Below the pieces are notes generated by a model. The model did not search any database and was not told where the DNA came from. It was given only the letters and a program-made list of their open reading frames with translations. Shown one piece after another: positions 8,606 to 64,000 of a DNA stretch of 64,000 bases (its first letter is position 1; every line of letters begins with the position of its first letter). Both the position numbers and the translations under genes were made by a program. This DNA comes from Sipunculus nudus. Its lineage: Eukaryota > Annelida > Sipuncula > Golfingiida > Sipunculidae. Location: NCBI GenBank assembly GCA_026874595.1, contig CM049318.1, positions 34,493,956-34,557,955 of the forward strand. Reading direction: 5' to 3'.

Positions 8606-8772
8606 ATGTAAGAACATACATTACCGCACAGCGCTGCCAGATACCAGCGTTATTATCTGTTTCCACAATGAGGCTTGGACGGTACTTCTCCGCACGGTCT
8701 ACAGCGTGTTGGACCGGTCACCCCCTCATCTCATCAAAGAAATCATCCTCGTCGATGATTTTTCGGACTTTG
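8606..8772 (+). CDS. GALNT: GALNT exon 1 of window: start of GT-A catalytic domain
   Basis: Bounded by a TTTACAG acceptor and a GTAGGT donor; 167 bases, entering with the third base of a codon and leaving after one base. It encodes CKNIHYRT, then the [11 protein letters not shown] block (first beta strand and nucleotide-binding region of GALNTs), [13 protein letters not shown] and [17 protein letters not shown] and ILVDD are near-invariant in the family. The codon before the CK is split with an upstream exon that I could not find in 1-8605. Confidence 0.93.
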
Positions 8773-13038: not shown

Positions 13039-13203
13039 ATCACCTGAAAACCAAGTTAGAGGAATATGTAGAACAGCTTGGTAAGGTGCGAGTGGTACGC
13101 ACCAAAAAACGAGAGGGATTGATTCGAGCACGTCTTCTGGGAGCATCTGTCGCGAAAGGAGCTGTGCTCACTTATCTTGACTCCCACTGTGAATGCACAG
13201 AAG
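13039..13203 (+). CDS. GALNT: GALNT exon 2: GT-A domain with DxH metal-binding motif
   Basis: 165 bases between TCTTGCAG and GTCAGA. The joined frame starts [19 protein letters not shown], continues [13 protein letters not shown] and ends [15 protein letters not shown] (13179-13187) is the family's DxH motif that holds Mn2+ and UDP-GalNAc; the following CEC is also typical. The exon leaves one base (g), so the next exon must supply two bases to make the Gly of GWLEP. All three exon 3 cassettes do so. The donor GTCAGA is weak. Confidence 0.95.
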
Positions 13204-16424: not shown

Positions 16425-16638
16425 GCTGGTTGGAGCCTCTGTTAGACCGGATAGCAGAGAATAAATCCAACGTGGTCACTCCAGTGATCGATGTGATTGA
16501 TGATGAAACTTTACGGTACCAGTTTGGTACCGCCAAAACTGTCAGTGTGGGTGGATTTGATTGGAATATGCAGTTTAACTGGCATGCAATCCCAGAGAGA
16601 GAACGTTTGAGACGTGGCTATGATGTCGCTCCGGTCAG
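16425..16638 (+). CDS. GALNT: GALNT alternative exon 3A (catalytic cassette, canonical type)
   Basis: 214 bases, acceptor CTACTTTTAG, donor GTAAAC. Encodes GWLEPLLDRIAENKSNVV then TPVIDVIDD, GGFDWNMQFNW, PERERLRR and APVR. In GALNTs this block follows DxH, lines the active-site cleft and carries the F-x-W-x3-F-x-W signature seen here. Its tail (R-R-G, A-P-V-R) looks most like ordinary GALNT1-type enzymes, so I take 3A as the ancestral form. It has Thr where 3B and 3C have Cys in the VVCP block. By hand count about 31 of 70 residues match 3B, with no gaps. A GAT microsatellite ends about 25 bases upstream of the acceptor. Confidence 0.94.
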
Positions 16639-19600
16639 GTAAACATAAGTCACCAATGAAATTAATCTCGTGTTGTCTGACATTACAAACTTTCACACTA
16701 ACCAGGGGGCCACAAGAGGTCTGTCATAAACCTCATACTTTTCAGTACCCAATATTTCATTTGAATAGGAAGCTCAGTTCAGAAACATTTTTCAAGGAAA
16801 CCTTTATGTTTATATTCATAATATGTTGGGATACTAAAATTTTCAAATTCATCTTTATTATTAATTTTCCATTTCTCAGTTTGCATCAGATTTTAATTCA
16901 CTTTTCCCATCTTTGGTAATTGATAAAAGATTTGAACATTTCAACTACTGATATCTTGTTGGGATAAACTGACTCCTTGCACCAAAACACCTGCTGACAC
17001 AGGTTACTCAGTGTAGCTGACACAGCCATGTCTGTTTTTCACTCGTTTGTTTCTTTACTTTTGTTTCTTTTTGTTCTTCACATGCTCCTACTTTTGTCTC
17101 ACATTCACACGTTTTTGAAGGACCTTGCTTTCACTGTATGTAGTCATATGTTGAGCGACTCTTACAATTGAAAGAACAAACAACTATTACAGTACATTGA
17201 AAAATGGAACCGTACAATATAACTGCAAAATTGAAAAACGTTGAAGTAAACTGTAATTGCAAGAATTAAAAATGTTACGGTTGTAGTGTAAAGTTTTGGT
17301 AGAACAATGACTGTAAAAGTTAAAATATGACTGCAAGACAGAATATTAACAGCAAAAATGTGATGGTAAAGCTGCGCAGTAGAAATTTTATTCATGAGTA
17401 AACAGTATAACAGATAATGTTAATTTTTTGTGAAGCAAAAATTTTTTTCAAATTTGTTATATTTACATATTTGAGTTTTTTTACAAAATTCCTTTGAGTT
17501 ATAATTTTTTGTGTATATATACAGACACACACACACACCACAAAGCAAGTTGTAATTCTTTGTGTATGTATGCTGTAAAAGCACACACAACATAGCAAGC
17601 ATATATACTGAAGCCTGTTATTAATTGAAAAAAAATCCTACATTTAAATTAATCTCCTACCTGTGACATTGATTTAAAATCCAAATAAATTTTGCATAGC
17701 TTCTGTATGTTAAGTATGAACTACAATAAATATGTTAAAAAAAGCATTCCATAAATGTTAAGCAGCCGTTACAATAGCACACAATTACAAAAATAAACTA
17801 TACATGTAACATACAGTTTATTGTATTGTTTTTATAACAGATACAGAACCAACATTTAAATGTTATCTATGACAAATAAATCAAGCAACCATATGACAAT
17901 TTTTACCACAGAATCTGTTACAAAGTTATTTTATATAATGACATTCATAATAAAATCTAGTACTTCAATACAAGTAAGCAAAGAGTTAATGCTCTGATTG
18001 CATAAATATAGTTACAGTGGCACCTAACTCTGTGTCACATGGAATATATTCACTAAAAGGTCAGTATACATGATTAATTTCAAAATACTCAACTACAGTA
18101 TTTGAGGTAATTAAGTTGTTGCTTTAGAGTCATGAATGGTGATGTATGAATTTTACAGCAGATTTGAAGGAAAAGTCAAGGTCAATTATAAGTTGCCTAT
18201 AGGTCATTCAGTTAAAAGTCTTGAAAATTTAGAATGAAAGTGTCTTACTGAAAAGGAATGGTGTACAGTATATTCCTAATATATTTGCTATAAACTTTAT
18301 ATGATTTAGTTTTAATTAAAGTATTTAAATCAGCATCATAATCAGGAAGGTCAAGGTCATATAGTGTATGTAGCAGATGGGCACATAGGATGATCTTAGG
18401 TATGTTATTGCCTTGAATGTTTGTTCCATTTAAGCACATTGCACAAGATTATTTCAGGCATGGTTCCCTGATAGAAGGTTGGTGCAAGGTCTAATATGGT
18501 TTTAATTAATAATTGTTTATGGTACTTGGTTTTAATATTAACACTTTGCATGTGAGACACGCAACACCACTACATTATTTTGCAACAAGGCCATTAATGG
18601 TATCTATCCCTCAACATCACACATTCTCGTTTTATCTGTACTTCTGCATCAATGACTCAGATCTGTCAAATCCTAATTAATAAGGTAATGGGTGTTAATG
18701 AAGTGGTTGCATGTAATTTGACTCTGGATTCATTAGGCATGCACGCTTTATAGAATATGGATAAGAAATTTTTCGCAGCCTGTCTGCATATGACTACTAA
18801 ATTACTAAACAGAGATATATATTTTTCATAACATCAGGGATCTGTGTCACAGGATTGTGTAAAAATTAATTCTGATTTAAATGGATGCACTGCTAACATG
18901 TTCTGTATACAGACTTTGGAGGCCAAAATTCAGAATGTTGTTTGAGCCAAGAAGAGTATATAACTGTAAATTAAAGCTCTCTTTTTAAGAAAAAATACAG
19001 TTATTAAATAAACAATTAATTTTGGTACATATTTATACATAAAAAAAATTAATTTTGGGTATATTTATAAAAAAAGCTATTCACTCTCATATGTAACCTC
19101 TGTAAAGATAACTTTGTTTATGCATGATAGCAGAAGTTTACTTTTGCCAAGCTAAAACCAAAACACTTTGGAAGATTGGGAGGAGATTTTATCTTCATTA
19201 CCATAGTATCCATTGGAGTTGTCTTTTTTCTACTTGTCATATTAGGTATACATAAAATACTTGGTTCTTTCATGGAAATATAAAAAATGTGCAAAGATTT
19301 CATTCTGAAACCTTTTCCTTACGCCTGTTCACAATAGATATAAACTTACCACTGTCACAATCAGTTGTGTGAAAAAAAAAACAGCCTTTTGCATTACTAA
19401 AATCAACAGTAAAAAAATAATTTATTTGTGGTTCATGACAAGTTTATCTTTTTTTCATGACTGCCAGGGTTTGAGCATGTAAAATAATATTGTACATTCG
19501 GCTTAATTATCTTGTTATGGTAAACAGACAAACAATACACAGAAGCAAAAAAATATGTAAAACAGGTGAAAAGGAGACAATGAGCCTCTAAGGCAGGGTG

Positions 19601-19656
19601 GTTCCTCTATGAAACTTTTGTATTAAGCCAAAATGAATAGATAGTTGAAGATAATA

Positions 19657-19817
19657 CAGTGGGACCTGTCTGAAAGACCACCTGTCTATTAAGACCACCT
19701 TTGCATGAACTGAAATCATTCACATTAGTTATAACAGGCCTATCAAGTAAGACCACCTGCCTATTAAGACCACTTTTAGCCAGCCCCACAGGTGGTCTTA
19801 TAACACAGGTTTCACTG
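19657..19817. mobile_element. TA-flanked MITE, copy 2
   Basis: 161 bases, CAGTGGGACCTGTCTGAAAG to ACAGGTTTCACTG, flanked by TA on both sides. The best-preserved long copy of the family; the interior carries 'tattaagaccacc' repeats and a GGTGGTCTTA close to the right end. Confidence 0.75.
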
Positions 19818-20729
19818 TACACTAGATGTCAAGTGACTAATTACCTTTAAAAATTATTCAAACTTCAAAATCCTTGCTTATCAAGTGAATGGCTTGTACA
19901 TTTGTACATCCAGTCAGAAATGGTTAAGAAAATGTTGTCACAGTGGGTATAGGCCATGTTTTATTCTTACCCAGCCAGTATATACTCAGTCAATGTTCTC
20001 TGTTTTATTTTCTTATCTGCACAGGTTGGTTAAATTGGAATAAATTATGCCAGTTAGGGAAAAGGAGCTGTAAACATGAAGCATGTGTATTTTGTCTCTG
20101 ATGGATTTATATTTATTACATCACATACCAGTTGGGGACCTCATGACCTTTGTTGTTTCTGGGCTTGAACACATGACCAATGACATCATATATCATGAAT
20201 TATGCATGAGATTATCTCCCAGCGTGTATAACAATATAAACAGTATGGAAATTTGATATTTCTGAAAACAGAATAGATGCCTCTGTCAAGAATTGCTGAG
20301 GCATTTTATTCAGCATAATTCGTCAAGATCTGAAATAATTTGTCTTTATTTTGTCTGATTGGTCAGATAACTTCATGCATAATGCATGAGATTGGTCACT
20401 GAATCAAGGCCTGTAACAATGAGGACTTTGATATTACTTAGATGTAATCCCTTTCTCTCTTTGTGTCTGACGACTCTTGAGTTGTGCATCATGCATGTTA
20501 CACTGGATGCACCGTGTGGTTCCCATTTCAGGTGGTGGTTTGTTGCATGGAGTTGGCCTAATGAGAATCAGTCCCCAATATCATTTTAATGGCTTTATTT
20601 CTGATTAACCTAGAGTTAAGGTGACTTGTGTTTAGGTGTGTACAGATTCTGTGCTTGGTGTATATAATGCTCCTCGTGCAGTAGTTAAAGACTGCAGTCA
20701 TCCCAGACATTGTTTCATGTAACCACTGC

Positions 20730-20999
20730 TTGGTATGGCAAGGTTCTCTGGGCAGGAACACCAGGGTACGCACAGAGCAAGAATTTTTTTCATTACACCG
20801 GGACACAAGCTCTCATTGGTTTGAATCTTGGCCCAATGCGAGAACAGATTTTTATCAGACCAACGAGAGAGTGTGTCACAATGTTTAAAATTTTGGCTGG
20901 ATATCATGCAATATCATGCACACTTTCAGTGGTCTGATTACAATTCTTTGCTCTTTGCGCTTCCTAGTGTTCCTGCCCAGAGTACCTTGCCATACCAAT
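20730..20999. mobile_element. Foldback/MITE element with about 65-bp arms
   Basis: TTGGTATGGCAAGGTTCTCT followed by GGGCAGGAACACCAGG on the left is mirrored on the right by CCTAGTGTTCCTGCCCAGAG and TACCTTGCCATACCAA. The first 30 bases differ at one position and similarity continues inward through CGCA.AGAGCA.GAATT. The transcript could form a long hairpin. The superfamily is unclear. Confidence 0.7.
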
Positions 21000-21433
21000 C
21001 AAAGATTACACAAAACAAATTCTAGGATTACAACAGTGTATAACAGCTACATGAGGAGTGTAGGTGTATATATAATTATGACTTTGTCTTAGTTCTTTTT
21101 CATCTCTATAGGTTTGGCTGCTTCAAACCGGCAAACAGACTGACACAATAGTGATGTTCATATCCAGTGTCTCAACTTACACTACTTTCCTATTTTTATC
21201 ATAAAACTGCCATTTATAAAGATGGGATGATTTACATTTGGCCTAACATTTCACCTTGGACCTCCTTAACAGAATATTGCCCCCCAACCTTTAGTTTATT
21301 AGTTACTATCTTACATAGATTTAAACACTTTTATTAACAAATGTGTTCTTTAACCATTTGGCCATACACTTTCCAGTTTGCAAGCTTTAAATTGTTAATC
21401 AAGGGTTACTTTCACAGTTTGATTTACCAAGTT

Positions 21434-21590
21434 AACATGATTGTGTCAAGGCCCAGATCCCAATCTGGACCAATCAAAAATTGGTCCAGACCAAATCCCA
21501 ATTGGGATTTTAACTGGACCAAATTTCAATTGGGAATTGGTCCAGACCAGATCCTATAATTGGGATTCAGTCTGGCCTATATCCCAGTCA
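21434..21590. repeat. Palindrome-rich repeat cluster 1 (TCCCAATTGGGA type)
   Basis: Repeated 'ggtccagaccaaatccc' units joined by palindromes such as ATCCCAATTGGGAT (21495-21508). Related to cluster 2, half a kilobase downstream. Confidence 0.75.
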
Positions 21591-22100
21591 GTTAATAATA
21601 AAGAGAATGACTTCCTGTCTAATCAGTTTAAGATGATGGCTGCTCATACCCCTGATCTAGCTCATATCTGTATCTACTTGCTGATTTCTTATCCACAGGG
21701 CTCTTTTGAATGATCAAATCAATGTTAAATTATATATTATATAAATTTTTTTTTGTTTATTTAGATACAGAATTTAATTATTTTGATTCATACATACATG
21801 ATACAAGTAGGTAATACAAACCAAAAGAAGTTTTATTCATCATATTTTCAATTTTGACAAAGGTTAAGATGTGCAACAAAATCAGTAGTATTCTTTTATT
21901 CCATTAAATATCAGGTGTCAGTCCTACTAATATTTACATGTTCAACTAGCTCTGTGTATTTGAAGTTCGAAATGGCATAAATAAAATTTATGAATTACAA
22001 AATTAGATTTAAGTTTATGAGAAGTTGAACTAAGATGAGTTAATTTTCCTCAGTTTAATCAGAAGTATGTGCAGTAGGCTTTATTTTGTATTATGTCAAC

Positions 22101-22385
22101 TCCCAGGCTGAATCAGGATGTGGGCTGGACCAGATCCTGATCAGGATTTGAACTGGTTAGAATCCTGATCAGGTTTTGGTTTGGACCAATCAGGAATTGG
22201 TCAGCCTATCCTAAACTCGATAGGGATCTGGTCAAATCCTGATCGGGATTCAATCCGGCCTAAACCCTGATCAGGATCTGGTCCAGCCCAAATCCTGAAT
22301 CTCTGGGTTTAGGCAAGACTGAATCCCAATCAGGATTTGGGCTGGACCAGATCCCAATTGGTCAAGCTTAGGATCTGAGAATCGA
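22101..22385. repeat. Palindrome-rich repeat cluster 2 (TCCTGATCAGGA type)
   Basis: At least five variants of ATCCTGATCAGGAT (one perfect at 22134-22147) alternating with CTGGACCAGATC-like spacers in both orientations. The unit is about 30 bp and degenerate. Confidence 0.75.
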
Positions 22386-22593
22386 CACTTGCATCTTAGG
22401 GTGAGTTACAGTGTTTTGCATTGAAATTATTGTATGCTTGAATCCATCAGCCAGCTTAAATACCATAGATACACTTGTGATGTAATAATGGTTACCATAA
22501 TCACTTGGATTTTGACACAAGTCCAAAATATGACTAAGTCATCTTATTGCAACAAACTCCTTTAACCCTCCACTCCATAAAAGTCAACAGTAA

Positions 22594-22892
22594 GGCCAAA
22601 AAATAAAAAAGGTATGGTTCTCAGGCACCTCCCACATCAATTTTAACCCCTTGCATCAAAAATTTTTATTTTGATTTCATCTTTCAAGAAGATAAAATAA
22701 TACAATTTTAAAATGATTTTCTTTGTTATGTAGTGCTTTTACCTGTTTAGCAAAATAAAAACTGTAATTTTCATGCTTTTCCCTGATCATATGTCATTTT
22801 TATTGAAACAAACAAAAAAGGGTAAAAAATAAATATCGCCTGCCCACACTGATTTCTGAAAAAAAGTGCCTGAGAACCATACTTTTTTTGCC
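22594..22892. mobile_element. Harbinger-like MITE, copy 1
   Basis: Terminal inverted repeats GGCCAAAAAATAAAAAAGGT / TATGGTTCTCAGGCAC, with the complementary end GTGCCTGAGAACCATA then TTTTTTGCC. Flanked by direct TAA (22591-22593, 22893-22895). A 3-bp TAA/TTA duplication and GGCC ends fit PIF/Harbinger. Confidence 0.75.
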
Positions 22893-23084
22893 TAATATGT
22901 TCTGATTCATTAATCTCATCCCATCTTTATAAATGTCAGTTCCGTCAAGGATTGAAGAATAATGTTCCCAATTGGATTGATTTAATAATAGTGGTAACTT
23001 TACCTGTGCTTTATGAAGACTTTCATGGTACTGACCATGAAAGCTTCCAACATAAAAGATGTAGCTGTGTACCTTTATTGGATA

Positions 23085-23712
23085 CAGTTGTCCCTGGTTT
23101 GACAGACCCCAAGATCAAATTATAACTTACTGGTAATGACCATCTTTCTCTACACAAATGGTCCTACAGTTAAAATATTCCTTTCAAGATCAAGCAACCA
23201 CCTGACAAACATGACCACCAACTACCAATTATCATAATTTTATTTGCTTTATAAGACCCTTTTCAAAGGTTATTGACTACTGCATTGTGCATAAGTAGGT
23301 GATAATTTGGTGATAATGGCATTTGTTTGGATTGTTTGTGAATGCAGTTGGCAGTAGGAAACCAGCCATAATTGAAATGACTTTGAAACTCCCAAGCAAC
23401 TGACATGGATGGTCACCTTACACTTGGTGTTGAAAAATAGTTTGAAGTACTTAGATACACGGTGATCTTTATTTTAAAGTTTTAATTTTGGATATTAAAG
23501 AAAGATGGAAATGTATGTACTCGATAATTTGGTAAGTTCTCAGAATATCTTTCACTCAATGCCATCTTGAGTAGTTTTCAGACTCGGGTGGCAGCTAACA
23601 AGATATAAATGAGAACCAATTTTGCATCCATTTTTTTTATCAAACAGCAACCTAATGTTACCAAATATATTTCTTTGGTAGACAGGTTGGTCTCTCAAAG
23701 CAGGGACAACTG
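23085..23712. mobile_element. 628-bp TIR element, TA-flanked
   Basis: Left end CAGTTGTCCCTGGTTTGACA / GACC, right end GGTCTCTCAAAGCAGGGACA / ACTG; about 25 bases with two mismatches. TA on both sides. The CAGT start and TA duplication fit the Tc1/mariner/pogo superfamily; no transposase is visible inside. Confidence 0.7.
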
Positions 23713-23879
23713 TACTTGAATTACATTCATTAACACAGTTAGAGATTAGTTATGTAGATTAAAGCTAAGGCTAGGTCAAGATGACATTCAGTCAGCCTAG
23801 GTACCTAGATCTCTTTCCATGGTTTGTTAACCCTTACTGTCTTTGAGATAACCAGAGATTCAATGAATTTTCTGAATCT

Positions 23880-24300
23880 GACTATAACTATTTTTCCATT
23901 GGATCATTTTGCCTGAGTTTTGGCAAAATCCACTCATGTTTAATGAGGTTGGAAATCACCAGGCTTCCTACTGATAACAGTGATAATTACAAGGAATTAT
24001 AAACTTTAATGAAACATAAAAAATATTAACTATGATGATATCTTGTCTGAGCTCAATTCTTTTAAGAAATCATGCATATGTGATAAGGTCAGAGGTCACC
24101 AGACTTTGGTGTTGCCATGATAACTTGCCTGAAATTTTCTGGATTTCCATGAAACTCCCTTAAAAATTATAAATATCAATCTTAAATTCCTTGTTTTAAA
24201 ATCATTACACATCAGCACATTTTATGAGGTCAAAGGTCACAATTCTTACAATGAGCATAATATTGCAGTGCTCCTGTTCACACCTGAAGAACTGATGACA
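23880..24300. repeat. Three-unit 140-bp tandem repeat with AGGTCA-type motifs
   Basis: Units are aligned on AGGTTGGAAATCA (23946), AGGTCAGAGGTCA (24086) and AGGTCAAAGGTCA (24227), each preceded by 'catgtttaatg'-like and followed by 'caccag'-like sequence. The third is a perfect DR1 hormone-receptor consensus. Confidence 0.6.
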
Positions 24301-24885
24301 GTTCATTACTTTGACCTGCATGGTTTTCCTTTCTGTGGACAGGTACAGCAAATGTCACCAATGAAATAAAAATTTGCTTATTTCATCAGTGTATTCTTAA
24401 AATAAGACAGATTGGTTGTGCAGTGACTATTTATGCTTTGCAGTGGCGACTTCTGAATTCCCCCTGATTATGTGACATGCAGAATAATGATAAAAATTAC
24501 AGTAAGTGGACACTTGTCATCACTATAATCCTTCTAGCTCAAAATGCTACCTGACCAGTGTAAAAGAAAAAGTATAGCCCTTCTTGAAATAGACCTTAGC
24601 TTGATTTAGGCATTTATGGTTGAATTGTAGTGGTCCAATTGATCTCTCATCCATTATTAAGGCTTTATAAGCCTCTTGAGCCTTTGGATTATACATTTTG
24701 TTTTCTTATTCATTTTGTCATCTGTCTTTTGTGCATCAAGGCTATATATATATATTCCATTTAAAGGTTTTTTTTCTGTGGACCTTGTACTTACAGGGTA
24801 GATTATTATTATGACTTTTTGGTTTCATTTGTGTAACGTTATTTGTATTGTTTCCATTCTTTGTCTTTTTCAGCCTTTATCTGTC

Positions 24886-25152
24886 ACATTTGATTAACAT
24901 GCAGTGTTTGATTGACAGGTCACATTTTAGAGGAAACTAATTGAAAAACCACACTTGGTTGCCATATCTTTTTTGACAGGAGGCATTTGATTGACAGAAC
25001 ACATTTGATTGAAAGGACATTTGATTAACTATTAGTATTGACATTTGAATGACAGTTGATGGTTGATTTGTGCATCAAAGCCCATATAACACTTGTGTCT
25101 CACATTAAGATATCAGGCCACGTTTGATTGACAGGTCATATTTGATTGACAG
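24886..25152 (+). promoter_or_regulatory. TTTGATTGACAG array forming the exon 3B acceptor region
   Basis: About nine variants of (CA)TTTGATTGACAG lie in 267 bases, the last being the exon 3B acceptor itself. Copies ending in AG lie at 24918, 24979, 24997, 25054 and 25134. The nearest is 18 bases before the true AG and its use would add an in-frame TGA. There is almost no pyrimidine tract. A role in regulating exon 3B is inference. Confidence 0.55.
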
Positions 25153-25366
25153 GTTGGCTGGAGCCATTGTTGGACAGAATTGCCCAAAACAGAAAGCATG
25201 TTGTTTGTCCTCAGATTGATATCATAGATGCCACAAACTTCAGGTTCAGACTGCATGCTCCCAAAAAGCCAATTGTTGGTATCTTTACTTGGAACATGGC
25301 TTTTGATTGGAAGATTCTCAAAGCCAAGGAACGAGCTTTACTACCAAACAATACATTCCCACTAAG
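25153..25366 (+). CDS. GALNT: GALNT alternative exon 3B (catalytic cassette)
   Basis: 214 bases, exactly the length of 3A, with the same phases (two bases complete the Gly codon; ends AG). Encodes GWLEPLLDRIAQNRKHVV, CPQIDIID, VGIFTWNMAFDWK and a divergent tail ending TFPLR. The F-x-W-x3-F-x-W frame is kept but the GG before it is GI, and the middle (about residues 30-42) is unlike 3A. The reading frame is intact, which argues for purifying selection rather than decay. The acceptor lies in an array of TTTGATTGACAG copies with almost no pyrimidine tract; donor GTAGAA. Best explained as a mutually exclusive alternative to 3A and 3C. Confidence 0.93.
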
Positions 25367-25609
25367 GTAGAATGTTTAATATCAGCATGGGGGCAGCATG
25401 GGATAAATTATTAGGGACATTGAAGACAGCACTCTCATGGAAAAGAAATGAAGAAAATTTAAAAGGCACTGGGGACTTTTGTTTTTATTGCTAGCGGTTA
25501 AAGTGTGTTTAAGTTCTGCCTTAGCTGACTTAGCTGGTAAATTGAGTGGTATACCTTTCATCATTAACCACAGGTTGACAATCAGTTTTCATTTGGCACA
25601 TGTTGCTTT

Positions 25610-27060
25610 TTTAGCTCAGCTGACTATAAGTCATCTGAGCTATAGTCGTGGTCCATTGTCCGTCGTCCGTCCGTCTGTCCGTCCGTCAGTCCGTCCGTCC
25701 GTCCGTCCGTAGATGTGGCACGTTTTGAAACCGTAAGACCTAGGAATCCAAAATTCAGCATAATGTTAGATGTCCCCAAGATCTCCTACCAAGCTGAAAA
25801 CTGGGTCTTTGCGACTTCATTCCTTTGAGAAATTAAGGAAAAACCTCAGTTTTTTATTAAAAACCTATTTTCACACTTCAGGACTGCCTAATATCAAAAC
25901 CACTCATCTGTTTTTCCTCATATTTCCTATAAATAATCCTCTATATAATTCCTAGGTACATGCCAGAAATTAGGTCTGTATTATATAATTTAAAAAAGTT
26001 ATGGGCCCAAACATAATGCATTTTGTAAATAATCAGGAAAGAAATTTTATCACTTAACACAAAACTTGTTAAAGCTAAGCACTTTTTTTCCAGTAATATT
26101 ACTTTTATTAATCAAAATTAAATTGTATACCCAAAATTAGATCAAAATCTTTTAAATTTTTTAAAATATTGGCAAAAATAAAAAATTGGTACCTTAAATT
26201 TTGCCCAACTTTGATCATTTTTTGCTGTAACTGCTGTGGATTTAATTTTCACAGCATGTTTTTGTTAGCATTTCAACTGTTAACACCAAAAATTTGAAAC
26301 CAGGTGATCAAAAACTGTAGATTTTATACAAGTTTTCAAGCACCATGTCACATATTGCTAGTGTTATGCAGTTTGCTAGAGCTCAGCTCCCGAGCTTCAG
26401 CTCTAAGTTCCTTAAATTTGGCATACAGTTAGATTTCTCCAAAATCCCCTACCATGCCAAGAATTTGGTCACTAGGACTTAATTCCTTCGAGATATCAAT
26501 GAAAAACTTCATTTTTCCATTAAAAACTCATTGTTACACTTAAAGACTGCCTAATATCAAAACCACTGATCTGACTTTGATCATATATAATATACATATT
26601 TTTCTATACATTCACTATGCACATGCCAGAAATGATGTCAGTATTGTGTATTTTTTTCAAGTTATGGGCCCAAACATAATGCACTTTGTAAAAAATCAAG
26701 AAATATATTTACTCCCTTAACAAGGGCATTGCTGAAGCTAGAGATTTTATTGTCAGGGATGTAACATTATTTAATCAAGATTCAATTGAATACCCAAAAT
26801 TAGTTCTGAATTTTTCAAATTTTATAAGTTATTAGTATAAATATAAAATTAGTACCTTAAATTTTGCCCAACTGTGACCATGGCACGTTTGTTTCCTGAG
26901 AGCACTGTTGATATAATTTTCATATCATGCACACATAAGGATTTCAGCTTTTTAGTTTAGAAAGCTGAAAGAAATTGGCCAAATATTGTAGCTTTTATTA
27001 ATGTTTTTTATGAGACCCTGTCAGACTTTGGCTCTCTCCAGCCCCTCTTGAGTCACCTGT
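25610..27060 (+). repeat. CCGT-headed dispersed element with internal tandem duplication
   Basis: It begins TTAGCTCAGCTGACTATAAG with a (CCGT)n run (25656-25710). Two diverged units then follow (about 25735-26390 and 26395-27010), both containing 'gactgcctaatatcaaaaccact', 'ACATGCCAGAAAT', 'GTTATGGGCCCAAACATAAT' and 'ACCTTAAATTTTGCCCAACT'. A repeat type common in bivalve genomes. Confidence 0.65.
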
Positions 27061-28349
27061 ATGTTGACCTTGTTGACCTTTCATCAAATTATGCATGCTT
27101 GAGGCGAGAATCCAGGCAGCTTATGGCCAGCCACAGTTGATCCAGGTGTCCAACCCAATTCATCTAGTAGTTTTATCTAACAACATAACAATAAACAATA
27201 AATTCATAAATTTTTCTTGGTTTTTAATAACAAATTAAAGAAAAATAGAAAAGGAATTTGTTAGTTTATAATAACAGGAAATTAACTTGCAGTTACTGAT
27301 GATATAAGAATCTTGTATTGATGGGTAGAATGTCACATATTCCAAATAACACCATGCAGTCACCTATGGCATTTTTCAGTTCATTTTTAATGATAAAGAA
27401 GTAAATCATATTATTCATTACTAATCATTAGGGATTATATGAAGGAAATTAATGATAGACAAAGATGCAGTTGATAATATTAATCTAGATTCCTACTGTG
27501 TCTAGTGTGTACATTGATGTGAAATTAGTCCAAAATGAATTTTTTACAGTTATTTTTTAATATAAATAAAAGCCATAAAACCAGGTACTTATGATCATTA
27601 TTGAAATGTGTGAATTTTGTATATTCTGGATTCTCAAAATCATTGTTTGGTGAAAACTGAATAAATACCAGACATGGTGCAAATACTTTGTAATTGTATT
27701 TAAATACGAATATGATTATGTACTCCATTATAAAATTGCTTGCATAAAGAATGGGAATTCAGGTAAAAATGAAAGTATATGAATACTCTTGCAAATACTT
27801 TCAAAATGTATTCATGAATGCATTCATGAATATATTCTTTAATATTATTTTAATAATCATATCAGTTATATTTCATTTTAAAAAATCATATGATTCTCTT
27901 ATTATTTTTAATAAAAATTATATTTGGGACAATATTTGTAATTTTTTTAATAAATAGTTAAACTCTTATATTATATGTTCTGCTTATAAGTTATATGGCC
28001 AAGTCAAAATCTGTGTGACAATAGCACTCCATTTGTTAATAAAATAAATGAAATCAATCCTCTTCCCTGTCTCCAAAGATACTATCAAAATCATACATAC
28101 AACTCATAATACAGCTTATATTTATTACCACACAAATGTGCCTCATTTCTAAAAAATATTTTTTTATCATATTTAACAGCTGAGCGTCGTGACCCATAGG
28201 TCCCTTGTTCCCCCTTGCAGTCCATCTGTAAACTGGGTGCGTTTGAAATAAGAAAGTAAAACTATCGTTTTTGAGGAAACTTTTCACAAGACTTCTTGCT
28301 GGAAGTTCAGGTATGAATGATTTTGTAATATTTGTTTGACCAGCTGGAC

Positions 28350-28560
28350 AGTCAAGTAGTAACAAGCTTGGCTTTCTCCACTGGTGACCTGGGTTCTATT
28401 CCCGGTATGACTGTGACATTGGGTTATATTGGCCTAGCCAGGTTTGGTAGTTTTGTGCTCTCGGATTCTCTACCCCTATAGACTACTGAATGCCAGCATC
28501 TGAGCCATGGAGAATGCCTCTTACAACTATATGTATGATCCATGTTAAATAAATTAAGTT
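28350..28560 (+). mobile_element. tRNA-derived SINE, third type
   Basis: B-box-like CTGGGTTCTATTCCCGG near 28389, then TGCTCTCGGATTCTCTACCC and a terminal AAATAAATTAAG. Confidence 0.5.
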
Positions 28561-29269
28561 TTAAAAATTGGAAGCATATTTTATTCATTTTGCATCATAG
28601 CTACATTCATTTATGGGCCAGTGGTTTCATCTTAGCTTCTTTAGATGGAAATGTTTTCTTTGGTGAACCAGTAAAATGTTAAAACTCTGTTACAGTAGAC
28701 CAGTGATCCAACTAGAAATTTATCACAGGTCTTAATTTTAGAATTAAGTTTTGAAAAATAGGAGATATGGCTGTTTTAGTTGGTACATTTATTGCATAGA
28801 GATTTTAGACCAAATACACATTTCATTTTACTTTTGAAGTTGCATGAGATGAAGTTTCACTTTTCCTGTTTCAGACCAAGTCAGTTTTCAGTGTACCTGA
28901 AATTTGGTTTAAGGTCTTGGATTTTAAAATTAATTAAATTGTTCTGTCTGGGCACACTGCTAGTTTTATATGAATGTTCAAGTAAAGGGAATAAGTGAAG
29001 TGATGCTCTCTGAATCCTTGAAAGGATGGGTTTGATATGCACAGCTGCACAGAACATCATTCAGGAAAACTGAGCACCCTGGGCCAAGGGCCACCATTTT
29101 TCTCATGGAAGAATCCTTCATCAGTCTTTACAGCATTTACTAACAGTTTTCAGATGGCCAGTGCCTGTGGATACAATAACAACCTTCTGCGTAGCAGGCA
29201 TGGAGGAATTTTTACTGACTTAAAGGATTTTTCTTTTATTCTTATTTTTTGTTTCCTCTAATTCCACAG

Positions 29270-29471
29270 GTTGGCTGGAGCCATTGCTGGAAAGGATAGC
29301 AAAGAATCGCAGCATTGTAGTGTGCCCTCAAATTGATATTCTAAAGGATGAGAATTTTGAATATGTCAAACACGGCAGAATAAAGGGCATATTTGACTGG
29401 GGGATGGTTTTTAGATGGAAATCTCTCACTAACCAAGAACTAGCTGTCAGAAAAAACTGGGAGCCAATCAG
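29270..29471 (+). CDS. GALNT: GALNT alternative exon 3C (catalytic cassette)
   Basis: 202 bases (four codons fewer than 3A and 3B, frame preserved) with the same entry and exit phases. Encodes GWLEPLLERIAKNRSIVV, CPQIDILKDENFEY, GIFDWGMVFRWK and a tail ending NWEPIR. Over the first 30 residues it matches 3B at about 21 positions and 3A at about 18, so 3B and 3C are probably the younger pair. Its acceptor has the strongest pyrimidine tract of the three (TTTTTTGTTTCCTCTAATTC before CACAG), so 3C may be the default choice; donor GTACAG. Confidence 0.93.
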
Positions 29472-34247: not shown

Positions 34248-34365
34248 GTCACCCACTATGGCTGGTGGTTTGTTCTCCATCAGCAGAGAATACTTTGAAT
34301 ACCTCGGGACATACGACCCAGGGATGGATATCTGGGGTGGAGAAAATCTTGAGCTCTCATTTAGG
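34248..34365 (+). CDS. GALNT: GALNT exon 4: MAGGLFSI and WGGEN segment
   Basis: 118 bases, acceptor TTCTTATTCCAG, donor GTATGG. One base completes the Arg begun by any exon 3 cassette. Then [46 protein letters not shown] and DIWGGEN(L/I)E(L/I)SFR form the Gal/GalNAc-transferase motif that contacts donor and acceptor sugars. Ends on a complete codon. Confidence 0.96.
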
Positions 34366-36169: not shown

Positions 36170-36298
36170 GGTGATTATGGTGATGTATCTGCAAGAAAAC
36201 AGTTACGGAAACGATTAAAGTGTAAATCATTTAAGTGGTACATATCAAATGTTTATCCTGATTTATTTATACCGGGGGATGCCTTAGCATCAGGGGAG
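36170..36298 (+). CDS. GALNT: GALNT exon 6: end of catalytic domain and linker
   Basis: 129 bases (43 codons), phase 0, acceptor TTGTTTCAG, donor GTAAGT. Encodes [40 protein letters not shown] and SGE. The YGD.S.R..LR..L.CK.F.WYL.N.YP pattern is the standard end of the GALNT catalytic domain before the lectin domain. The next exon (7A or 7B) starts VRN, giving the usual GE-(V/I)RN junction. Confidence 0.96.
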
Positions 36299-36677: not shown

Positions 36678-36788
36678 GTCAGGAATAAGCATCTTCCAAA
36701 ATGCCTGGATAGTCCAGTGGACAAGCTTTCAGTGAAAGCCAACAGCCCTATCAATATTTGGCCCTGTCATAACATGGGTGGCAACCAG
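36678..36788 (+). CDS. GALNT: GALNT alternative exon 7A: lectin alpha repeat, version A
   Basis: 111 bases (37 codons), phase 0 at both ends, acceptor TTCAACTTTTAG, donor GTACTG. Encodes VRNKHLPKCLDSPVDKLS, then NIWPCHNMGGNQ; joined to exon 8 it completes the QYW of the ricin-type QxW motif. CLD and CHN.GGNQ are the carbohydrate-pocket signature of the alpha repeat. Its homologue 7B lies 4.2 kb downstream with identical phases, so the two look like alternatives. Confidence 0.9.
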
Positions 36789-41019: not shown

Positions 41020-41124
41020 GTTCGCAACTCAGCTGCTTCGCAGTGCCTTGATAGTTCTGTAGAGAACAATGCCATGAGTAAACCTATAAAAATGTGGCCT
41101 TGTCATAACCAAGGGGGCAACCAG
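41020..41124 (+). CDS. GALNT: GALNT alternative exon 7B: lectin alpha repeat, version B
   Basis: 105 bases (35 codons), phase 0 at both ends, acceptor CCTGTGTTACAG, donor GTATTA. Encodes VRNSAASQCLDSSVENNAMS, then IKMWPCHNQGGNQ. It shares VRN, CLDS and WPCHN.GGNQ with 7A but differs in the middle loop (acidic/Asn-rich against Lys-rich). Both exons are multiples of three, so joint inclusion would keep frame and duplicate the repeat; mutually exclusive use is inferred from homology. A GGT run and CA repeats lie just downstream of its donor. Confidence 0.9.
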
Positions 41125-43825: not shown

Positions 43826-43951
43826 TATTGGATGCTCAGCAAAAGTGGTGAGATCCGCCGTGATGAGGGGTGCATGGACTACGCGGGTCAATTTGTTATG
43901 ATTTACCCTTGTCACGGCATGAAGGGTAACCAAGAGTGGTTATATGAAGAT
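43826..43951 (+). CDS. GALNT: GALNT exon 8: lectin beta repeat
   Basis: 126 bases (42 codons), phase 0, acceptor TTGTAG, donor GTAAGT. Encodes YWMLSKSGEIRRDEGCMDYA, then GQFVMIYPCHGMKGNQEWLY and ED. The first two residues finish the alpha QxW. CMD replaces the usual CLD; CHG.KGNQEW is the beta repeat's QxW. Confidence 0.96.
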
Positions 43952-44918: not shown

Positions 44919-45074
44919 AATAACACCATCCGTCATAGAGTTAGCAACTTGTGTATGGAGTTATCGGCGGACGGACAGAAGTTAGAAATGAAAACATGCA
45001 CGGGAAGCTCCCGCCAGCTGTGGCAGTGGAAGAGGAAAACGCCCGACGTACATAGAGACCAGATGCTCAGATAA
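44919..45074 (+). CDS. GALNT: GALNT exon 9: lectin gamma repeat and stop
   Basis: 156 bases including TAA at 45072-45074; acceptor CTCTGTTTACGCAG. Encodes NNTIRHRVSNLCMELSADGQ, KLEMKTCTGSSRQLWQWKRK, then TPDVHRDQMLR. CME and C.GS.RQLW form the gamma repeat. The short basic C-terminal tail after the QLW is not a conserved element that I know. Confidence 0.96.
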   Translation, partial: NNTIRHRVSNLCMELSADGQKLEMKTCTGSSRQLWQWKRKTPDVHRDQMLR

Positions 45075-62159: not shown

Positions 62160-64000
62160 CCCTATAACTAACTATAACTATATTTATTTCGTATAGCGCT
62201 ATTTTTACACGTATGTTTCAAGTGCGCTTTACAACTAAAACATCATACTTAAAAATAGAACCACATATTTACTAAATTATCAATGACACTAAAAAGCTAA
62301 AAAAGTTATATCGGTAAAAAAATAAAAATATTTAGGTATAGTATTTTCTAAAAAGGTAAGTTTTAACGTCCTTCTTAAATTGTTCAATACGTGATACTGC
62401 TTTCAGTTCTTCTGGAATGCTATTCCATAGCTCTGGACCACAAACACTGAAAGATCGCGAAGCAAAAGTTTTCCGTTTTGTAGGGGGTACTACGAGCCTT
62501 CTTACACCCCTGTCAGATCTAAGCCTTAATCTGCCTTGTTTCTGTACCTCTATCAATTTCTTAAGGTAATCTGGTGCAGTTCCTTCTAAGCATTTGAAGA
62601 CAACGGTCAAGACTTTATGTTCTATGCGAGCACGAATAGGTAACCAGTGTAATGCCTTGCGAGCTTCCGTTGCACTTTCGTATTTTTCCTTGTTTAATAC
62701 TAATTTTGCTGCAATGTTTTGCACACGTTGTAGCTATTTAATTGATCTTTCTGGTAAACCAAATAAAATTCCATTGCAATAGTCAAGGTGAGACATGACT
62801 AGTCCCCAAACTAATGTGTGGGTTGCTTCCATCGTGAGTATGGATCTGATCTGCTTAATTCTATGAATATTATGCATTGCAGTTCTACATTTCAATGAAA
62901 TGTGATGTTTGAAATTTAGCTGCTTGTCCAGCCAAGCTCCCAAGTATTTAATATTATCTGAAAGTTCAACGTGTTCTCCGTTTACATTTAACTGAGATGA
63001 TGTGCATTTTGACAACTGTCCATTGTTACCAAACATAATGAATTCTGTCTTGGAATTATTCATTTTCAGTCTGTTTGAGTCCATCCACGTTTTAATGTCT
63101 TTCGCACAAGTTTCCAGTTTTCGGATGGTGGCGTTCTCTGCTTGACAATTGTTAGCACTGAATGAACACTTAATTGCATGGTCATCTGCATATCCATGAA
63201 GTTGGATGTCTCCTGGAATAACTTCCTGTAATGTACTGGCATACGCCAGATAAAGGATTGGCCCTGCACAGCTTCCTTGAGGAACTGTAAAAGTTAGGTC
63301 CATATTCCTTGAAAACTTATCACCTATTTTCACTTTACATGATCTGGGTCTTAGGTAACTGTCAAACCATTCCAGAACTTTTCCATTTATACCGAATTTA
63401 TTGTATAGCACTTCTAATAAAATTGAGTGATCAACCGTGTCAAAAGCGGCTGACAAATCTATTGCCATCATTGCTGTAATTTCCTGACGTTCCATCGCCC
63501 ATAATATGTCGTTAGTCAGTTTGATTAGTGCAGTTTCACACGAGTAATTAGCTCTGTATGCTGACTGATAATCTGGCATTAATTCTTGACTCTTAGTATG
63601 TTGATTAAATTCAGACAAGGCTGCTTTCTCGAGTACTTTTGATAAAAATGGTAAATTACTCACAGGTCTGTAATTTGAAGATATTAATTCAAGACCAGTT
63701 TTTTTCAGAAGGGGACATACTATAGCCTCCTTCCAACTTCTAGGAAATCTCCCTTCAACCAGTGAAATGTTAATAATGTCTGTTATTTTTCCTATCACTG
63801 CTGGAAGCATTTTCTTCAGAAGAATAGTTGGCAGTGCCTCTGTTTCACAGCTCTTACTTGGCAAACTATTGATTATGGCTGTAACATCTCTCTGAGACAG
63901 AGGCCTGAAATTATTTAAAGATTTTACATCTTTTCTTCTAGGCTGATAATGTGAAAATTTGTCCAGACTTGATCTTATTTTGTTTATTTTACTCAGGAAA
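62160..64000 (-). mobile_element. CR1/L2-like non-LTR retrotransposon, truncated by window edge
   Basis: The element reads on the - strand: reverse transcriptase (62332 to the right edge), a short 3' UTR with the 'GTAAAGCGC ... GCGCTATA' tail typical of CR1/L2 elements (about 62195-62235 on the + strand), and a terminal short tandem repeat of TATAGTTA type (62164-62185). It lies upstream of the CDK5 exon at 61909-61989, so it most likely sits in a CDK5 intron in sense orientation. The 5' part (endonuclease) is outside the window. Confidence 0.85.
62332..64000 (-). pseudogene. Reverse transcriptase ORF of the LINE, interrupted by one nonsense codon
   Basis: Open in one frame from the right edge to 62332 apart from TAG at 62734-62736. 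RT blocks in order: LPSKSCETEALPT, SNYRPVSNLPFLSKVLEK, AIDLSAAFDTVDHSILL, VPQGSCAGPILY, HGYADD (catalytic Asp pair), NRLKMNNSKTEFIMF and KYLGAWLDKQLNFKHHI, then the C-terminal domain LQRVQNIAAKLVL through ALHWLPIRARI to WNSIPEELK. The stop falls just before LQRVQN, where relatives have a sense codon. The copy looks young but probably cannot make full-length RT. The region left of the stop (62332-62733) is still open for 130 codons. Confidence 0.85.

Follow-up and report, generated by a model that had tools for sequence, protein, structure and literature searches.

The 64,000-nucleotide window analyzed here (C13:34493956-34557955 of the 1.43 Gb Sipunculus nudus assembly) contains a polypeptide GalNAc-transferase (GALNT) gene of family GT27, which lies on the + strand, spans positions 8606-45074, and carries three neighboring versions of its third exon in the window, here called 3A, 3B, and 3C. 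The 12 exons of the window were bounded by homology and splice borders (Table 1). They encode a GT-A catalytic domain with a DxH motif (LDSHCEC, exon 2) followed by a ricin-type lectin domain, the arrangement by which GT27 enzymes are recognized, and the glycosyltransferase and ricin-lectin families match all three spliced proteins tested along their length (PF00535, E 2.8e-36 to 1.8e-37; PF00652, E 1.8e-26 to 3.3e-27). The isolated exon-3 copies score 14.8, 17.7, and 19.8 bits, under the PF00535 cut-off of 23.3 bits, whereas the spliced proteins lie far over it. The nearest solved enzyme to the spliced 3C form is Drosophila PGANT9 (544 bits versus 456 for GalNAc-T1), as ranked among the 17 distinct PDB sequences that this form matched. 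An earlier sequence-only reading of this DNA had assigned the gene to a GALNT1 class; the family was correct, but the class label is loose because PGANT9 is the nearest solved enzyme and a distinct GALNT1 orthologue sits at another locus of the same genome.

Exons 3A, 3B, and 3C are three versions of one segment, bounded by DSHCECTE of exon 2 and SPTMAGGLF of exon 4. The sequence-only reading had described them as three tandem, mutually exclusive exons, and its coordinates and lengths of 214, 214, and 202 nucleotides are borne out, as are the common entry phase (two bases complete a glycine), the common exit phase (AG, with the arginine completed by the G of exon 4), and the F-x-W-x3-F-x-W motif in every copy; 3A and 3B do align without gaps, with 32 of 71 residues identical in place of a hand count of about 31/70. 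The corresponding identities are 37 of 67 aligned codons for 3B-3C and 32 of 65 for 3A-3C. As tblastn queries, the copies each retrieve both others with E values of 2.6e-15 or lower; the window shows no fourth copy, the next match of any query standing at E 0.79 or worse. When 3A was allowed to drift neutrally to the 3A-3B divergence, an open frame was kept in 2.9% of 20,000 simulations (11.3% at half that divergence), and simulated amino acid identity had a mean of 17.1 and a maximum of 27, against the 32 identities observed for 3A-3B. Differences fall in excess at third codon positions in 3B-3C (40/85, p=0.006) and in 3A-3C (39/88, p=0.021). None of the 20,000 neutral runs retained all of 17 chosen residues, a test that is partly circular because these residues were picked as common to 3A and 3B and that is given no weight here. 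The three copies are neighboring homologous exons whose phases agree and whose splice borders are intact, as is characteristic of tandem-duplicated exons, and they are real, intact parts of the gene.

The lengths of 3A, 3B, and 3C are each 1 mod 3, and inclusion of none, two, or three copies shifts the frame to an early stop, so that only mRNAs with one of the three encode a full enzyme. Three of the eight possible inclusion patterns are open, each with exactly one copy, and the other five hit an early stop. Combining these eight patterns with four lectin states gives 32 simulated mRNAs, among which 12 are full, all with one exon 3, and the remaining 20 stop 419-1127 nt ahead of the last exon junction, a distance at which nonsense-mediated decay is expected. 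Such breakage of the frame is a frequent though not invariable property of mutually exclusive tandem-duplicated exons. This frame rule is the strongest sequence evidence for mutually exclusive copies, and we conclude that the triplet is real and probably mutually exclusive. The splice swap proposed by the sequence-only reading is partly supported: the sequence provides three intact homologous copies in one phase and the rule on the frame, and the splicing of each copy and a change in acceptor preference are predictions. Under this model, the spliceosome would pick one exon-3 copy per transcript, and nonsense-mediated decay would clear wrong choices. With ordinary GT-AG borders and 3.9-8.5 kb between the alternative exons, splice-site strength and trans-acting regulators would be more likely to set the choice than steric hindrance or U2/U12 incompatibility; steric hindrance and U12-type sites were set aside as the chooser, given introns that are kilobases long and borders that are ordinary.

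Table 1. Exons of the window gene and other features discussed in the text, with positions counted from the first base of the window unless a C13 coordinate is given.
Feature	Position	Strand	Evidence or remark
Stem exon (FNQYASDMMSLHRTLPDVRDPE)	about C13:34490247-34490400		3.6 kb upstream of window
Exon 1 in window	8606..8772	+	start of GT-A catalytic domain; homology, borders
Exon 2	13039..13203	+	ends ...LDSHCECTE + G; holds DxH motif
Alternative exon 3A, 214 nt	16425..16638	+	copy most like PGANT9; 63% to PGANT9 segment, 71 residues
Six spaced TTTGATTGACAG copies in 246 bases	24907..25152	+	four exact, two with a single mismatch
Alternative exon 3B, 214 nt	25153..25366	+	46% to PGANT9 over 61 residues
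Alternative exon 3C, 202 nt	29270..29471	+	48% to PGANT9 over 60 residues
Exon 4	34248..34365	+	SPTMAGGLF...
Exon 5, catalytic flexible loop and subsequent helices	35300..35485	+	one copy in the PGANT9-type gene
Exon 6, catalytic domain end and linker	36170..36298	+	
Alternative lectin-alpha exon a1, 111 nt	36678..36788	+	phase 0/0
Alternative lectin-alpha exon a2, 105 nt	41020..41124	+	phase 0/0
Lectin-beta exon	43826..43951	+	
Lectin-gamma exon	44919..45074	+	includes stop codon
GALNT1 orthologue gating-loop exon L150	C13:25475374-25475556		
GALNT1 orthologue gating-loop exon L151	C13:25470992-25471174		

What the swapped segment contributes can be read against GalNAc-T2. Because the DxH motif sits in exon 2, exon 3 represents the acceptor-groove segment and not the metal-binding center. 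The hydrophobic peptide contacts of GalNAc-T2 are Val255, Leu270, Phe280, Trp282, Tyr284, Phe361, His365, and Phe377, and the Trp282Ala and Phe361Ala substitutions almost eliminate its activity (PMC4432651). The first five of these residues, Val255 to Tyr284, map to exon 3, and this share of five in eight upholds the earlier suggestion that the segment borders the peptide groove (PMC4432651). Residue numbering was checked on chain 4d0t, and the ungapped registers of I-D-V and G-x-F-x-W-x3-F-x-W served to place the copies. Phe280 and Trp282 are kept in 3A, 3B, and 3C, and positions 255/270/284 read V/S/A in 3A, I/I/I in 3B, and I/I/S in 3C. Segment net charge is -2 in 3A, +6 in 3B, and +3 in 3C; 12 other GALNT segments range from -6 to +4, making 3B the most basic of 15. 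Each isoform would therefore keep the proline-pocket aromatics while altering nearby groove positions and surface charge, changes from which we would expect the isoforms to prefer different acceptor peptides. In fly enzymes, preference for oppositely charged mucins follows from the charge of the loop that is swapped (PMC6115407, PMC12776162), and by analogy we expect that 3B, and less strongly 3C, would favor more acidic acceptors than 3A. We consider it likely that the three tandem exons of this PGANT9-type gene form a mutually exclusive cassette for one acceptor-groove segment, whose isoforms would differ in their acceptors.

The same residues bear on an alternative in which 3B, 3C, or both are genuine alternative exons whose exchange alters stability, partner binding, or activity, as would a weak or inactive form that regulates the active enzyme, rather than acceptor choice. 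At position 273, before F-x-W, 3B and 3C carry an isoleucine where the other compared segments have glycine (asparagine in T3, alanine in T10), turning GGF, GNF, or GAF into GIF, and they also have a glutamine before Ile-Asp; together these changes could affect folding or activity. The changes nonetheless affect groove positions and surface charge, and every copy retains Phe280 as well as Trp282, whose replacement by alanine nearly abolishes GalNAc-T2 activity (PMC4432651), so that we regard this alternative as unlikely.

The surroundings of 3B suggest that its inclusion needs help, a lead that also bears on whether the extra copies are used. Its acceptor has pyrimidines at 9 of 20 positions, the fewest of the 12 exons (12-16 in the others, with 3C the richest at 16/20), and so weak an acceptor fits the expectation for a regulated exon. 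The last of the spaced TTTGATTGACAG copies listed in Table 1 is the 3B acceptor itself; the motif occurs 8 times in the window versus 0.96 expected, a count that none of 100 shuffles reached. Every unit ends in CAG and could serve as a competing splice acceptor, and by eye the AG of the penultimate copy would introduce a stop if used. Two GCATG motifs lie within 250 nt downstream of 3B where 0.29 would be expected, in a search of seven splicing-factor patterns at five exons that is uncorrected for multiple looks. That 3B and 3C are decaying copies, rarely or never used, would agree with a poor 3B acceptor inside a short repeat array and with the long end branch of 3B in the segment tree (1.11 versus a median of 0.54), but the open frames, intact borders, retained family residues, and third-position excess between 3B and 3C oppose decay and leave this account highly improbable. 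Least probable of all is that the extra copies are chiefly poison exons, whose double inclusion would shift the frame and reduce expression by way of nonsense-mediated decay, since poison exons need no protein-like sequence and 3B and 3C retain one, even though all two- and three-copy mRNAs carry an early stop and the two effects could coexist.

Returning to the cassette reading, the order in which the copies arose can be approached from their nearest relatives. The best non-self genome matches of 3B are 3C (63.5 bits) and 3A (62.6 bits), followed by a match at 34.4 bits, and those of 3C are 3B (63.2 bits) and 3A (50.6 bits), followed by one at 44.0 bits. A tree of the segment (15 rows) joins 3B with 3C at support 97/92, and its midpoint drawing does not group the two with 3A. 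As the tree is not resolved, it is from position, borders, and match scores that we infer tandem duplication within the gene, with 3B and 3C arising from a second duplication; 3A would then be the PGANT9-like form, and 3B and 3C would be derived.

The gene also holds a second candidate cassette that was absent from the sequence-only reading, a tandem pair of lectin-alpha exons, a1 and a2, through which the lectin half would vary independently of exon-3 choice. If both cassettes were freely used, the sequence would allow up to 3 x 2 = six proteins. The pair occupies the position of exons 8A/8B of fly pgant9, whose PGANT9A/B cDNAs differ in lectin-alpha exon 8 only and show charge-dependent specificity (PMC6115407). 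The fly enzyme is the closest solved one to the window gene, and both genes have tandem lectin-alpha exons, whereas an alternative exon 3 is not described for the fly gene in the accessible part of that report (PMC6115407). Between a1 and a2, 19 residues are identical and codon differences are 11/7/20; either exon shares 13-15 residues with fly 8A or 8B. Since the a1/a2 pair shows greater mutual similarity than similarity to the fly exons, the two pairs are possibly independent in origin.

Several observations weigh against the cassettes as proposed. The lectin-alpha pair lacks the frame protection that distinguishes exon 3, and with net charges of +3 (a1) and +1 (a2) it does not reverse charge as the fly pair does (+6/-4). 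Within the triplet, the charge of 3C falls inside the range of the other segments, and the third-codon-position excess for 3A-3B is marginal (42/101, p=0.051). The segment tree leaves 9 of its 12 inner branches open and does not fix the placement of 3B and 3C relative to 3A, and a same-chromosome paralogue (L002, 63.4 bits) ranks narrowly above 3B (61.7 bits) as the best non-self match of 3A. Finally, a search of positions 13204-34247 for docking/selector RNA pairing returned 22 inverted pairs and no convincing case of intron pairing able to enforce exon choice; exact 13-mer pairs more than 2 kb apart numbered 22, compared with 11.3 on average and 19 at most in 30 shuffles, and mobile elements could account for this slight excess.

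We also surveyed the rest of the genome with a search that scored top candidates only, so that match counts are lower bounds. Among the at least 17, 14, and 15 matches listed for 3A, 3B, and 3C, respectively, we recognized no retrocopies or other clusters, and the exon-3 triplet is the only such cluster found; no relatives were found in viral_contigs or phages. Two C5 matches at 8.620 and 8.655 Mb, 34 kb apart, were considered as an exon cluster but look like separate genes because each runs in frame from its own DAHTE sequence, and two C8 matches that might have formed an extra cluster prove to be two parts of one segment. The GALNT1 orthologue (C13, 25.47 Mb) does contain a pair of gating-loop exons separated by 4.2 kb. 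Both members are open, agree in phase, have AG/GT borders, and sit at the position of the fly pgant5A/B exons; over 61 residues their identity to human GalNAc-T1 is 80% and 59%.

The survey yielded further observations on GALNT-like loci and on the assembly. On C10, two tandem partial gating-loop exons lie 5.6 kb apart (C10:18497060-18497167 and 18491457-18491561; L152, L153), with AG/GT borders by eye, and the GALNT7/10-like gene there (exon L017 nearby) may be a third GALNT with a swapped exon. C5 carries GALNT-like segments with DAHTE replacing DSHCE at 8.62, 8.65, 44.09, 75.71, and 79.05 Mb (L010-L013, L016), four of the five in open frames of 281-335 codons and L011 in one of 85, a separate GALNT-like group with few introns. 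In the window itself, a 133-codon open frame on the - strand (62332-62733) resembles by eye the end of a LINE-type reverse transcriptase. The assembly also includes bacterial-looking contigs (C60, C61, C62, C66, C72, C74, C75, C89, and C123; L042-L044, L051), which are symbionts or contaminants. Nine near-equal-scoring cytochrome oxidase subunit I genes are spread across eight of these contigs; the three that were read have 37-38% GC nearby and best named bacterial matches 57-58% identical, and C123 has a 52% GC stretch with a different kind of oxidase operon. As tests of lineage, a search for the hemocyanin beta-sandwich family, which had no positive control, gave no match, the cytochrome oxidase matches lay on these bacterial-looking contigs, and globin exons were uninformative.

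Tandem exon swapping in the GALNT family is already known, in the lectin-alpha exon of pgant9 and in the catalytic loop of pgant5. In the latter, PGANT5A/B use alternative versions of residues 398-457, which cover the catalytic flexible loop and helix I-II, with charge-dependent specificity (PMC12776162). The likeness to the window gene lies in alternative exons within the catalytic domain, which in the fly alter specificity toward charged mucin peptides (PMC12776162). The site differs, as the GalNAc-T1 loop residue A349 (PMC12776162) falls in the exon-5 segment and not in exon 3, and gating-loop exon 5 is single in the window gene and doubled in the GALNT1 orthologue of the same genome. Outside the family, tandem exon 10 of Crassostrea virginica AOX is swapped by splicing, changes residues near key sites, and was called the first mollusc case (PMC5589949); as proposed for the window gene, a duplicated exon alters the surroundings of an enzyme's key sites, but that enzyme is unrelated, and the duplicated exon there has two copies and is the last one (PMC5589949). 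The precedents at other exons in pgant9 and pgant5, together with the GALNT1-orthologue pair, support the exon-3 cassette.

A literature search that covered few subscription journals found no report of an alternative exon at the GALNT acceptor-groove segment, nor of a GALNT gene with three copies of an exon or with two cassettes. The isoforms of C. elegans gly-5 reportedly differ in the catalytic domain, and this gene is a possible precedent and the main threat to the newness of the exon-3 site. GALNT13, Pgant5, and gly-5 are listed with tandem duplicated exon substitution, with the exons unspecified in the accessible part of the source, and gly-5 and GALNT13 thus share gene family and class of event with the window gene (PMC9741552). 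That one GALNT gene has two independent cassettes yielding a six-enzyme set, with exon 3 as a new third swap site and GALNTs made modular by repeated exon duplication, is a tentative proposal, plausible but leaning slightly toward doubt.

The choice of serines and threonines for O-GalNAc modification depends on many related transferases with overlapping preferences. If our reading is true, one genome holds duplicates of three modules: the acceptor groove of exon 3, the gating loop of exon 5 (doubled in the GALNT1 orthologue and perhaps also in the GALNT7/10-like gene), and the lectin-alpha repeat. GALNTs would then have diversified through repeated exon duplication besides gene duplication. 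Exon 3 would add a third position to the two fly ones, which fits a proneness to tandem exon duplication (PMC9741552). With the catalytic machinery constant and only a single wall of the groove, 68-72 residues long, being swapped, the gene would represent a natural chimera experiment, in which three isoforms differing in a single exon could reveal which groove residues and charges determine acceptor choice, and the lectin pair would let groove effects be separated from lectin effects.

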